Source: Neisseria musculi (lineage in GTDB: Bacteria > Pseudomonadota > Gammaproteobacteria > Burkholderiales > Neisseriaceae). From it: a stretch of DNA of 64,000 nucleotides. This document shows positions 10,105-14,121 of the stretch, piece by piece. A model generated the notes under the pieces. The model saw only the letters and a list, made by a program, of their open reading frames with translations, searched no databases and was not told the origin of the DNA. The stretch covers positions 1,922,001 to 1,986,000 of the forward strand of contig NZ_CP060414.2 in NCBI RefSeq assembly GCF_014297595.2, given 5' to 3'. Every line of letters begins with the position of its first letter. Position 1 is the stretch's first letter. Made by a program: the position numbers and the translations under genes.

Positions 10105-11325
10105 CTACAAACACGCCGTTTCGTTGGCCATTTGCTGTTCCCACGTTTCACGCCGGCGGATTAGGCGGGCTTCGCTGCCGTTTACCAGCACTTCGGCCGC
10201 TCTGTTGCGGGTGTTGTAGTTGCCGGCCATGCTGCTGCAATAGGCACCGGCATCGGCAACCAGCAGCAAATCGCCTGCTTCGCAGGCAAGCTCGCGCTCT
10301 TTGCCGAGAAAATCGCCGGTTTCGCAAATGGGGCCGACCACATCGGCAACAAACGGCTGCCGTTTTTTCTGCCCGACCACTTCGATGCGGTGGTAGGCAT
10401 GGTAAAGCGCGGGGCGCATCAAATCGTTCATGGCGGCATCGACAATCACAAAGTTTTTTTCTTCGCCCTGTTTCACAAATTCAACCCGCGTCAGCAATGT
10501 GCCGGCGCGGCCGACCAGGCTGCGGCCGGGTTCGAGTACCAGCTTTTGGCGGCGGCCGGCCATCATGCGGGCAACGGATTGGGCATAGGCATTCAGATCG
10601 GGGGCATTTTCATCGCGGTAGACGATGCCGATGCCGCCGCCCAAGTCGATATGCTCCAACTCGATGCCTTCTGCGGCCAAGCGGTCGACCAGCAGCAGAA
10701 TGCGTTCGCAGGCTTCGACAAGCGGGCTTAAATCGGTGAGCTGCGAACCGATGTGGCAGTCGATGCCGGTGATTTTCAGACGGCCCAACCCCGCAGCATA
10801 GCGGTAGGCAGCAGGGGCATCGGCGTAGGCAATGCCGAATTTGTTGGATTTCAGGCCGGTGGAAATATAGGGGTGGGTTTTGGCATCGACATCGGGGTTG
10901 ATGCGCAGCGAAACGGGCGCGGTTTTGCCGATGCGTTCGGCCACGGCCTGAATGCGGTCAAGCTCGGGCAGACTTTCCACATTAAAACACAACACCCCCG
11001 CGTTTAAGGCGAACTCAATTTCGGCCTCGCTTTTGCCCACGCCCGAAAAAATCGTTTTGCCCGCATCGCCGCCTGCGGCCAGCACACGCGCCAATTCACC
11101 GCCGGAAACAATGTCGAAACCGCTGCCGAGCACGGCAAAATGTTTGAGTATGCTCAGATTGCCGTTGGCCTTCACGGCATAACACACCAGCGGGTTCAGG
11201 GTGGCAAAAGCATCGGTGTAGGCGCAGAAAGCACCGGTAAGTGCCGCTTGGCTGTACACATAAAGCGGCGTGCCGAATTCGCCGGCAAGGCGGCTGTAGG
11301 GGGTTTGTTCGCAATACAGGGTCAT
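10105..11325 (-). CDS. lysA: diaminopimelate decarboxylase
   Basis: PLP-dependent enzyme making L-lysine from meso-diaminopimelate, the last step of lysine synthesis. The 406-residue product has a group IV decarboxylase barrel: the PLP lysine in [36 protein letters not shown], and the active-site CETGDFL and DAGAYCSSM near the C-terminus. The start ATG overlaps the lptM stop in an ATGA arrangement, so the two genes are translationally coupled. Confidence 0.96.
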
Positions 11326-11489: not shown

Positions 11490-11528
11490 GAGTCTTCCGT
11501 AGGGTGCGTTAATGTGGCAAGATGCGGC

Positions 11529-11557
11529 ATCTTAAACAAAAATATTCCGATACACAA
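11529..11557 (-). promoter_or_regulatory. possible promoter for lptM-lysA
   Basis: On the minus strand TTGTGT, a 17-base spacer and TAAGAT lie about 40 bases before lptM. Both boxes are imperfect, so the call is tentative. It shares the short divergent region with cyaY. Confidence 0.3.
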
Positions 11558-11564
11558 AGCCATC

Positions 11565-11888
11565 ATGACCGAAAGTGAATTTTTACAGCATTCCGATGCT
11601 TTATTTGCCCACATCGAAGACCGGCTGGACGAAGGCGGCTGGGATTTTGATTGCCGTTTGAACGGCAACGTGCTCACCATCGAAGCAGAAGGCGGCGCAC
11701 AGATTATCATCAACCGCCACACGCCCAATCAGGAGCTGTGGATTGCCGCCAAAAGCGGCGGCTACCATTTTGCCGAAAACAACGGCCGCTGGCTCTCCGC
11801 CCGCGACGGCAGCGAATTTTTTGCCGTGCTCAATCAGGCATTAAGCGCTGCGGCGGGCGAAGAAGTGCGGGTGGAAGCGTTCGGTTAA
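11565..11888 (+). CDS. cyaY: frataxin-like iron donor CyaY
   Basis: Bacterial frataxin homologue (107 residues), an iron-binding regulator of Fe-S cluster assembly on IscS. The acidic first helix ([15 protein letters not shown]) is followed by strands with [31 protein letters not shown] and the terminal helix. The length matches Escherichia coli CyaY. It is divergent from lptM-lysA, a neighbour pairing that also occurs in other proteobacteria. Start ATG at 11565. Confidence 0.95.
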
Positions 11889-11912
11889 CGCCCGTTTTTG
11901 ATTCTATGAAGG

Positions 11913-11949
11913 TTTGAGGCCGTCTGAAAACTTTTCAGACGGCCTCAAA
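11913..11949. terminator. bidirectional terminator formed by inverted DUS pair
   Basis: TTTGAGGCCGTCTGAAAA and its exact complement face each other around one base. The hairpin sits between the end of cyaY (plus) and the end of the bacteriocin-like cassette (minus), so it can serve both. Confidence 0.8.
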
Positions 11950-11998
11950 CATAAAAAATATAAAGAAAAATGAACCGACTCCGAATCATTGCCTACAG

Positions 11999-12193
11999 CT
12001 ATTTGGAGCCGTTTGAATATTTTCGGCTGATAAAAAGGTGGGCGGCATAAAGCAAATCGGCAATATATGCCGTTGAAAGAATCAGCATCACAGTATATAT
12101 GCCTTGTATATTTAACGGTTTGTATACCAAAAAATATGCAGCTGAAAAGCAAACCAGAATATATACCATTCTAATCGGGGGATTGTTTTGCAT
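11999..12193 (-). CDS. small two-helix membrane protein, candidate immunity protein
   Basis: Not recognised. 64 residues with two hydrophobic stretches: VYILVCFSAAYFLVYKPL (about 10-27) and YTVMLILSTAYIADLLYAAHLF, then a basic tail RKYSNGSK. It lies 45 bases after another small membrane protein and downstream of a bacteriocin-like precursor, in the same orientation. Small membrane proteins in that position are often immunity proteins, so I infer, without proof, a protective role. The ribosome-binding site is weak. AT-rich, unlike the flanking genes. Confidence 0.5.
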   Translation of the reverse strand: MQNNPPIRMVYILVCFSAAYFLVYKPLNIQGIYTVMLILSTAYIADLLYAAHLFISRKYSNGSK

Positions 12194-12238
12194 ATCCGAG
12201 TTTCCGATTGAAGTAAATATTTTAGATAAAATCCGTTT

Positions 12239-12439
12239 TTATTTTTCTTTGTTTTTCCCAAACGCTTTTTGGTTAAAAGCCTTATTTAATAAGAAATTGA
12301 CCGGCACAAAAATAAGTGTGGCAATAACGGTAAACTTAAGGGCTTCCCCAATTGTCGGATACATTAAAAAATAAGAGGACAACAACATAAATATAAAAAA
12401 GATACTTCCCGAAATCAATATAAATCTTCCAATATTCAT
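12239..12439 (-). CDS. small two-helix membrane protein, candidate immunity protein
   Basis: Not recognised. 66 residues from ATG 12439, chosen because AGGAG lies 6 bases upstream; a start at 12478 has no ribosome-binding site. Two hydrophobic segments, ILISGSIFFIFMLLSSYF and FTVIATLIFVPVNFLL, are followed by a lysine-rich tail (NQKAFGKNKEK). It sits 63 bases downstream of the bacteriocin-like precursor on the same strand. I infer immunity or processing assistance from position and form only. Confidence 0.6.
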   Translation of the reverse strand: MNIGRFILISGSIFFIFMLLSSYFLMYPTIGEALKFTVIATLIFVPVNFLLNKAFNQKAFGKNKEK

Positions 12440-12502
12440 AACAACTCCTATAATTATATCAATCAACCACATCGGCATAACAGATAGCTTAGATAAAACA
12501 CA

Positions 12503-12742
12503 CTAAGCTATCCTAATCTTGCTAATAATTAAGGATTGCCAAGCATCGCTGATTACTGCTGCGCCAAAACCGCCAACAAAACCACCAACCGCTCCCAAGC
12601 CTGCACCAACGGCAGTTGCCGTGCCTATTGCAGCAGCTCTGCCCCAATTGACCCTACCCCGATCCCAACCACCTGCAACCAAATCCAGTTCAGTCATGGT
12701 TAATTCCTGCATACCCATATTGTTCACGGTCAAAGCTGTCAT
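12503..12742 (-). CDS. double-glycine-leader bacteriocin-like precursor
   Basis: 79-residue peptide with a textbook double-glycine leader: QELTMTELDLVAGG at residues 12-25 has L at -12, E at -8, L at -7, V at -4 and GG at -2/-1. The predicted 54-residue mature part (from WDRGRVNWGR) is Gly/Ala-rich with GAGLGAVGGFVGGFGAA containing GxxxG motifs, typical of class II pore-forming bacteriocins. Start ATG at 12742 has AGGAG 7 bases upstream. A TTGATA-N17-TATGTT promoter precedes it. No ABC exporter with a C39 peptidase is in the window, so export must use a transporter encoded elsewhere. Confidence 0.8.
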   Translation of the reverse strand: MTALTVNNMGMQELTMTELDLVAGGWDRGRVNWGRAAAIGTATAVGAGLGAVGGFVGGFGAAVISDAWQSLIISKIRIA

Positions 12743-12776
12743 AATAATACTCCTATCTTCTATAAAAAATTAATGA

Positions 12777-12805
12777 AACATAGATTTTCCGATAATAAAT
12801 ATCAA
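12777..12805 (-). promoter_or_regulatory. sigma-70-like promoter of the bacteriocin-like cassette
   Basis: On the minus strand TTGATA (12800-12805), a 17-base spacer and TATGTT (12777-12782) lie about 35 bases before the precursor gene, in very AT-rich DNA. Confidence 0.5.
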
Positions 12806-13145
12806 ACAAATCTGGTTCGTATGAGTTCCATCGACTTAATTTTGTTTCGTTTAATTAAGTTTTTTTTGCAATAAAAATTTATAAAAAATTAACCATAAAA
12901 TCATATTATTGATATAGGCTTGCAGAGTGATATATAAAATATGAATATATGGCATGATCCCACCATAAAACGGCATCTGAACCACCCGATATATGTTTTC
13001 CTAAAACACCGTCATGTATCAGTAGTTATTTTTCCTATATGCCGCCAAGATGTTAACGCTTTGTTTTTAATTTGATATTTTCCATAGTATTAACTTTTGA
13101 AAGTTTGTTGCTTTCCGCCGTTTATCCGATGAATGGGCTTTCCTG

Positions 13146-13180
13146 TTGAGGCCGTCTGAAAGTTTTCAGACGGCCTCAAA
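13146..13180. terminator. inverted DUS pair
   Basis: TTGAGGCCGTCTGAAA and complement form a perfect hairpin. It lies between the divergent bacteriocin-like cassette and the dioxygenase gene, so no adjacent transcript obviously ends here. Confidence 0.5.
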
Positions 13181-13302
13181 CCATGCCGGATTAAATTTCC
13201 CAATAGGAAAAGATAAATCAACAAACGGCCTATTTATCAAACAAAATGGCAGGCTTATACTGACTGCCATTCCATGATACAGAGATACATAAAGGTTTTG
13301 CC

Positions 13303-14121
13303 ATGAAACTGCCCGTTTTATTCCTCGGCCACAGCAGCCCGATGAACGCCATGCGCGACACGCCTTACAGCCGCAACTGGCGCAGGCTCGGCTCGGCATT
13401 ACGGCAGCACTACCGCGGCAGAATCCGCGCCGTACTGGCCGTTTCCGCCCATTGGTGCACCGACGGCACCGCCGTAACCGCCATGCCCGACCCGCGCACC
13501 ATCCACGATTTCGGCGGCTTTCCGCAGGAATTGTTCGCTATGCGCTATCCCGCGCCGGGCAGCCCCGGGCTGGCCGCCGAAATCCGCTCGCTACTGCGCG
13601 AACACGCCGTGACCGCCGATTTCGGCTGGGGCTTGGACCACGGCACTTGGAGCGTGTTGTGCCATCTGTTTCCCGAAGCCGATATTCCCGTGGTGCAGCT
13701 GAGCCTGAATGTGAATCTCGATGCACCTGCCCATTTCGCGCTTGCCCGCCGTTTGGCGCCGCTGCGCGAACAAGGCGTGCTGATTGCGGGCAGCGGCGAC
13801 ATCGTCCACAACCTGCGCCTGATGGACTGGCGCGCGCCCGACTCAACCGGCAACGCCTACGAATGGGCACAAAGCGCGCGCATTTTGGTGAACGGCTGGC
13901 TGGAAAACGGCAACACGCAGGCGCTCACCGATGAGGCAGCCTACCCGCCGGCGCTGCATCTGGCTGCGCCCACGCCCGAGCATTGGCGGCCGCTGCTGTA
14001 TGCCGCCGGCGCCGCCGCTTCAGACGAACCGTTGCAGATTTTCAACGATGACATCATCGGCAAATCGCTGAGCATGACTTCGGTGGTGTTCGGACACGAT
14101 GCGTTGTTTGAAGCGGCGTGA
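13303..14121 (+). CDS. ygiD: DODA-type extradiol aromatic ring-opening dioxygenase (YgiD family)
   Basis: Member of the 4,5-DOPA extradiol dioxygenase class III family (LigB-like fold), 272 residues. Metal-site histidines are in LFLGHSSPMNAM near the N-terminus, VSAHWC, and SGDIVHNLR; a further conserved histidine is in LDHGTWSVLCHLFP. The family opens catechol-type rings; the physiological substrate of the bacterial YgiD group is not established. AAGG lies upstream of the ATG. Monocistronic. Confidence 0.88.
   Translation: MKLPVLFLGHSSPMNAMRDTPYSRNWRRLGSALRQHYRGRIRAVLAVSAHWCTDGTAVTAMPDPRTIHDFGGFPQELFAMRYPAPGSPGLAAEIRSLLREHAVTADFGWGLDHGTWSVLCHLFPEADIPVVQLSLNVNLDAPAHFALARRLAPLREQGVLIAGSGDIVHNLRLMDWRAPDSTGNAYEWAQSARILVNGWLENGNTQALTDEAAYPPALHLAAPTPEHWRPLLYAAGAAASDEPLQIFNDDIIGKSLSMTSVVFGHDALFEAA

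Follow-up and report, generated by a model that had tools for sequence, protein, structure and literature searches.

Two described systems of Gram-negative bacteria resemble the locus reported here in several parts. With class II microcins, such as microcin V (CvaC with CvaAB-TolC), it has in common a precursor, a small membrane immunity candidate, a C39 ABC exporter, a membrane fusion protein and a TolC-like protein, going by the accessible sections of PMC9746304. With McbC/McbI of Moraxella catarrhalis, a nasopharyngeal Gram-negative species, it shares a double-glycine bacteriocin gene with a tiny immunity gene behind it that has no similarity to database entries, as described in the available portion of PMC2761928. 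Within Neisseria, the nap island is a GG-peptide locus with experiments behind it, and competitor killing was not found according to the part of that report at hand (PMC11798529). The bacteriocin genes of the meningocin were not identified, according to an excerpt of PMC9263626, and a 2021 article, in the text available, lists meningococcal bacteriocin islands and calls the meningocin of one island functionally verified, with reference to the same 2008 study (PMC8627216). A single N. subflava strain showed no diffusible inhibition in the accessible part of PMC13375697, which has no bearing on the cassette. Since a 2022 review, in the sections open to us, found no Neisseria bacteriocin characterised at both the genetic and the biochemical level, the Neisseria family described below is best seen as a testable lead. 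Our literature search, which mostly covered papers outside subscription, returned no paper recognisably describing the cassette.

The window, i.e. the whole 64,000-nt stretch that was analysed, comes from the genome G000 (other G numbers stand for further genomes, L numbers for loci and P numbers for proteins). It probably carries a mobile precursor-immunity cassette belonging to a Neisseria family of class II double-glycine bacteriocins, which here would provide immunity beside an impaired or changed toxin. The features of the locus are as follows.

11565..11888, plus strand: flanking gene, which we take to be cyaY (frataxin-like)
11919..11943: DUS inverted repeat, insertion edge toward cyaY
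11951..13147: inserted AT-rich segment of about 35% GC, missing in G020
11999..12193, minus strand: Imm2, small membrane protein of 64 aa (dN/dS, genome search)
12239..12439, minus strand: Imm1, predicted immunity protein of 66 aa, two-helix membrane hairpin, read from the start that bears a Shine-Dalgarno sequence
12503..12742, minus strand: double-glycine precursor of 79 aa (ORF, family search, alignment)
12742-12668, minus strand: leader of the precursor, 25 aa with a GG end
12667-12539, minus strand: core of the precursor
12538-12506, minus strand: read-through tail of the precursor (last 11 codons)
12750..12754, minus strand: Shine-Dalgarno sequence of the precursor, AGGAG, also kept in G019
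12777..12805, minus strand: sigma-70-like promoter site, of a kind not above chance frequency
13151..13174: DUS inverted repeat, insertion edge toward ygiD
13303..14121, plus strand: flanking gene, presumably a ygiD-like dioxygenase

The cassette has been inserted where it now lies between two DUS hairpins, and its empty site is seen in G020, where cyaY and ygiD are spaced by 177 bp with a single DUS hairpin between them and no cassette. In the window and in G019 the same DUS repeat occurs twice between these genes with the AT-rich segment between the copies, and in G019 the whole unit lies at the same cyaY-ygiD site, with lysA beyond cyaY. The original prediction had pointed to the AT-richness of the segment relative to its surroundings and was right in this, as 11951-13140 has 34.9% GC compared to 54.4% for the window and is its lowest 1.19-kb stretch (steps of 50), that is, the most AT-rich stretch of about 1.2 kb. 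The coordinates originally given fall short of the whole inserted segment, however, which extends to the second hairpin at about 13150. A DUS hairpin had also been proposed to close the unit; the inverted repeat at 11919-11943 is indeed there, but it is not among the terminator-like sites found (two, compared to 1.3 expected). Inside the insertion, upstream of the precursor, about 400 bp of AT-rich DNA (12743-13147) differ by 10% from G019 and hold no convincing ORF, and an Rfam search over 11500-13500 gave nothing close to a gathering score.

A search with cyaY gave 45 matches, from which 30 loci were examined. The cyaY-ygiD site could be compared in G000, G019 and G020 only, the other 27 cyaY loci having no ygiD match within their 1.5 kb. 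Across these three genomes the two conserved genes enclose one cassette type in two (G000 and G019) and none in the third (G020), and the unit looks mobile. The DUS hairpins at both edges suggest that the cassette was incorporated by homologous recombination. Among 13 cassette loci examined, DUS hairpins on both sides within about 550 bp occur only in the window, L030 and L034, so that bounding by DUS is seen in these three and not shown to be general among cassettes; L036-L039 have few or no DUS of the window's type. Empty sites were also sought for two cassettes of G029, whose flanks we take to be mqo/waaA and phoH/apbE, and among the other 27 and 29 loci, respectively, none has both genes of the pair. 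Synonymous difference is 0.13 for the immunity genes compared to 0.31 for cyaY, 0.35 for lysA and 0.17 for ygiD; since ygiD is also low, these values do not decide for a recent transfer.

The 79-residue precursor with a GG leader is present as predicted, the leader positions that had been named are correct (...L(-12)...E(-8)L(-7)..V(-4).GG), and the proposed ribosome-binding site was found as AGGAG at 12754-12750. The precursor matches PF10439 Bacteriocin_IIc of Pfam with 20.7 bits (E=4e-4; curated cut-off of 27.1 not reached) and PF17508 MccV with 20.8 bits (curated cut-off of 27 not reached), and a structure model of it is of low confidence (pLDDT 54.7). A search with the single sequence found precursor matches at E<=0.01 in 7 of 83 family genomes, own genome counted, and a profile found them in 11 of 83; the ORF behind the profile hit in G061 was not seen as double-glycine, and this hit was not used as evidence. 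The homologue search that had been proposed as a check thus yielded relatives with a conserved leader and a variable core in other Neisseria. Three outcomes had been set beforehand as counting against the prediction, and two of them turned out in its favour, homologues existing and a C39 exporter being encoded in the genome.

In an alignment of ten precursors of the genus (A1) the leader is conserved and a Trp stands at the C terminus or close to it, the tail of the window copy beginning after this Trp; in a wider set of 18 precursors, P0048 is without the C-terminal Trp. PF10439 is matched at E<=0.01 by nine of the ten aligned precursors. When 8000 candidates were scored in a profile search, 56 proteins, among them that of the window, reached E<=1e-3; PF10439 is carried by 14. 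Several of the 56 are named bacteriocin by their sources, including Blp family class II bacteriocins in N. sicca and Aquibacillus, and the set also has proteins of N. canis, N. wadsworthii and N. yangbaofengii. As a separate observation, the precursor at L035:8466-8720 of the Neisseria genome G051 is 85% identical over 73 residues to P0012 of the Gram-positive Aquibacillus, with the differences mostly in the leader, and a transfer across phyla with acquisition of a new leader is a possible explanation.

The window copy had been taken for a typical, intact antibacterial precursor, which does not agree with the alignments, as three differences set its core apart from those of its relatives. Compared to G019 and to P0003, which had the highest identity among the relatives in the protein search, the core has a gap of 12 residues; aligned position 28 is Arg in place of the Trp of the other nine A1 members; and the window copy has lost the stop at which G019 ends after its final Trp, and runs on for 11 residues. 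With the core altered at three points, its present role is most likely immunity with an impaired or changed toxin, and the window peptide may have lost its activity with immunity retained. Similar states are seen in G029, where an intact Imm1 lies beside a precursor that terminates right after GG (L031:6535-6774) and an Imm1 relative occurs in a locus with no double-glycine ORF found (L033:5737-5958), next to one intact precursor-Imm1 pair elsewhere in that genome. Loss of the toxin with retention of immunity would be the simplest reading. Alternatively, divergence may have given the window core a different target range, with a shorter but still active peptide as the result of the deletion and the new tail. 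Frame, leader and ribosome-binding site are intact, and compared to G019 the first 22 core residues have seven nonsynonymous and three synonymous changes, as expected where cores diversify, with none and one in the leader and none and three in the last 20 shared core residues. On the other hand, the tail runs past the G019 stop, after a Trp that in the nine other A1 members is at or near the C terminus, and together with the Arg at position 28 this makes a still active peptide somewhat unlikely in our judgement.

As the original prediction held, two tiny hydrophobic proteins are encoded on the minus strand after the precursor and in the same direction. The start of Imm1 with a Shine-Dalgarno sequence is at 12439 (66 aa), not at the longer ORF start at 12478 (79 aa), and an AlphaFold2 model of Imm1 (mean pLDDT 87.4) has helices at 3-25 and 30-64. 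Compared to G019, Imm1 is 97% identical as a protein with one nonsynonymous and five synonymous changes (dN/dS about 0.05, P=0.002), and Imm2 is 98% identical with one and six (dN/dS about 0.05, P=0.001), while the other two frames of both genes have 0 or 1 synonymous to 6 or 7 nonsynonymous changes. From these frame-specific counts it follows that Imm1 and Imm2 are coding and constrained.

In the window, L030, L031 and L032 the gene immediately after the precursor is Imm1, and remoter relatives adjoin the precursors of G048 and G033. At E<=0.01 Imm1 matches in 7 of 83 family genomes, own genome counted and with one weak match in G058; this weak Imm1-like match (internal stops) and another in G016, each seen in one search only, were not used as evidence. 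In a protein search 35 relatives were obtained at E<=1e-3 including Imm1 itself, none of them informatively named. Imm1 fits an immunity candidate in size, membrane hairpin, linkage to the precursor and selection, and its two-helix hairpin is predicted to protect the producer. Imm2 has matches in 2 of 83 genomes only (G000 and G019, E<=0.01), one protein search for homologues returned Imm2 itself alone, and no clear Shine-Dalgarno sequence was seen by inspection at its start; it is possibly a second immunity or accessory protein.

The cassette had been described as self-contained, which has to be revised, since export must come from elsewhere: a C39 exporter is encoded 159 kb away in the same genome. 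That no exporter lies nearby was correctly predicted, the genome's only two C39 matches both falling outside the window, and looking elsewhere for a C39 ABC transporter and an HlyD partner, as had been suggested, uncovered both, along with a TolC-like gene. The exporter (720 aa) has C39 (E=7.5e-37), ABC membrane and ABC ATPase domains, and its Cys41/His114/Asp130 are spaced like Cys32, His105 and Asp121, given as the catalytic residues of CvaB in the available text of PMC9746304. Its 5' end is overlapped by a same-strand gene of the HlyD type (HlyD_3/HlyD_D23); about 3.7 kb further, on the opposite strand, there is a gene for outer membrane efflux (OEP, TolC-like). The bacteriocin transporter structure 4ry2 is matched over 26-706 (E=1.5e-95), and P-glycoprotein-type chains outscore it slightly, without the C39 part. 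Between the HlyD-type and efflux genes of this locus (L003) lie six more double-glycine ORFs, one of them a paralogue of the window precursor (E=0.003); one further leader hit of 15 aa elsewhere in the locus was dropped as spurious.

The distance between cassette and exporter, with contigs taken as circles, is 159 kb here, 550 kb in G019, 279 kb in G014, 7 kb in G051, 209 to 1065 kb in G029, and 236 and 900 kb in G048. An exporter at least 65% identical is present in 14 of 46 genomes of the genus (only partial or in pieces in G017 and G038), and one at least 83% identical in six of the seven genomes with a single-sequence precursor match, which have the six best exporter scores of the search. 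Co-occurrence in the genus is significant for these precursors (Fisher P=0.002) and for the 10 profile precursor genomes, seven of which have the exporter (P=0.005), both tests ignoring genome relatedness. Precursors without the exporter occur in G033 (single sequence) or in G033, G037 and G050 (profile), and 7 of the 14 exporter genomes are without a precursor of the window's family (profile). Scanning named genome contigs with the exporter found N. wadsworthii and two distant loci, and the same scan with the G019 precursor confirmed no relative. The exporter 159 kb away is predicted to export the window precursor.

Further peptides and peptidases were noted at these loci. At L003:12047-12154 and 12722-12907 two double-glycine ORFs have short proline-rich cores, in contrast to the Gly/Ala-rich ones, and these peptides have the look of proline-rich antimicrobials. 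Double-glycine peptides of a second type, whose cores are charged and rich in aromatic residues, stand ahead of Gly/Ala-rich precursors at L003:13936-14115 and at L035:8089-8280 and 10572-10763, and the two together are perhaps two-peptide bacteriocins. The window's own genome also encodes a 222-aa C39 peptidase that has no ABC domains (L004:9476-10144), near a Gly-rich ORF with a Sec-signal-like start and then a glycine-alanine leader-like stretch (L004:11665-12111), an arrangement resembling nap or fap. In the window, which has no C39 match, no FapF-like channel gene beside the peptides was recognised by inspection of the ORFs at 5-20 kb. An ABC gene set seen by inspection at 5.3-9.3 kb looks, we assume, like Mla-type lipid transport.

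Double-glycine leaders serve pheromones too, which counts for a reading of the peptides as signals or autolysis factors, like the gonococcal Naps, and not as bacteriocins that kill competitors. The Naps have GG motifs and promote autolysis, with no detected antimicrobial activity, in the available text of PMC11798529. Nevertheless, we find this quite unlikely for the present family, as its cores are Gly/Ala-rich and Bacteriocin_IIc-like, in contrast to the short cationic nap peptides, and as the precursor is followed by a constrained small membrane protein that is intact even in G029 with the stop after GG, which fits immunity. That the precursor is a modified RiPP, i.e. an XyeA-like triceptide, is very improbable: the NCBIfam match to XyeA over residues 7-36 (17.2 bits, E=0.0043) falls far below the cut-off of 33, and no radical-SAM-like gene was recognised by inspection of the flanking ORFs.

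The cassette is presumably transcribed, but the proposed promoter adds nothing to this; the hexamers TTGATA-N17-TATGTT are present as claimed, but such sites are not commoner than chance (7 found in 1.5 kb, this one included, compared to 5.8 expected, sd 2.4), and for this reason carry no weight. This chance frequency, and a leader pattern that alone is non-specific and also matches two spurious ORFs within the window, would suit chance ORFs in AT-rich intergenic DNA, a reading that we consider practically untenable, being contradicted by frame-specific purifying selection on Imm1 and Imm2, homologues in other genomes and the same site in G019. The cassette is real and selected.

For the mobile precursor-immunity cassette, we propose the following course of events. 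The precursor has a leader of 25 residues ending in GG, after which the remote C39 ABC exporter, whose components and catalytic residues are encoded in the genome, would cut and, together with the HlyD- and TolC-like proteins, export the core. The Gly/Ala-rich core would then enter the inner membrane of related non-immune cells and presumably kill them, while Imm1, and possibly Imm2, would shield the producer, as judged from linkage and purifying selection. The DUS-bounded segment was inserted into the cyaY-ygiD gap, most likely by natural transformation and recombination. Since the insertion is clean and edged by DNA uptake hairpins, it becomes possible to test whether transformation and bacteriocin exchange are linked, and the family supplies concrete precursor, immunity and exporter genes for this kind of testing. 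Searching only beside the exporter misses members of the family. More speculatively, and on balance we think it unlikely, the whole may form a hub-and-spoke arsenal, in which one C39 exporter serves scattered precursor-immunity cassettes, some DUS-bounded, that are shuffled by transformation. Killing of non-immune kin would free DUS-tagged DNA that spreads the cassettes, and immunity may at first outlast the toxin, a pattern hinted at by the window copy and by G029.

Compared to known systems, the differences are mainly in arrangement. The mcbABCI genes of Moraxella form one operon with its own exporter (PMC2761928, in the portion available), whereas precursor and exporter are apart here. In contrast to class II microcins, the exporter of the window's genome is 159 kb off, the MccV profile stays under its cut-off, and antibacterial activity is a prediction. 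With the nap island of N. gonorrhoeae the locus shares GG peptides, a C39 peptidase, an immunity-like gene, horizontal acquisition and the genus, but nap has a separate C39 peptidase, a FapF-like channel and short cationic peptides and is tied to autolysis without killing of competitors, as far as the accessible text goes (PMC11798529). NMB0097/NMB0098, linked to meningocin (PMC9263626), and the bacteriocin island GI 15A (PMC8627216), both known to us from parts of these sources, are likewise Neisseria secretion genes or islands tied to inhibition of other meningococci. The minimal mobile elements of Neisseria, as outlined in the available section of PMC3898611, are also gene cassettes between two conserved genes, but the cyaY-ygiD site shows presence or absence of one cassette, with no alternative cassettes seen in the three genomes. 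With the PF10439 or Blp family the leader type and the Gly/Ala-rich core are the same, although the window copy scores under the family cut-off and the Neisseria cassettes mostly lie far from the exporter. In its sequence the cassette resembles the class II double-glycine bacteriocin type, of which it would be a further example.
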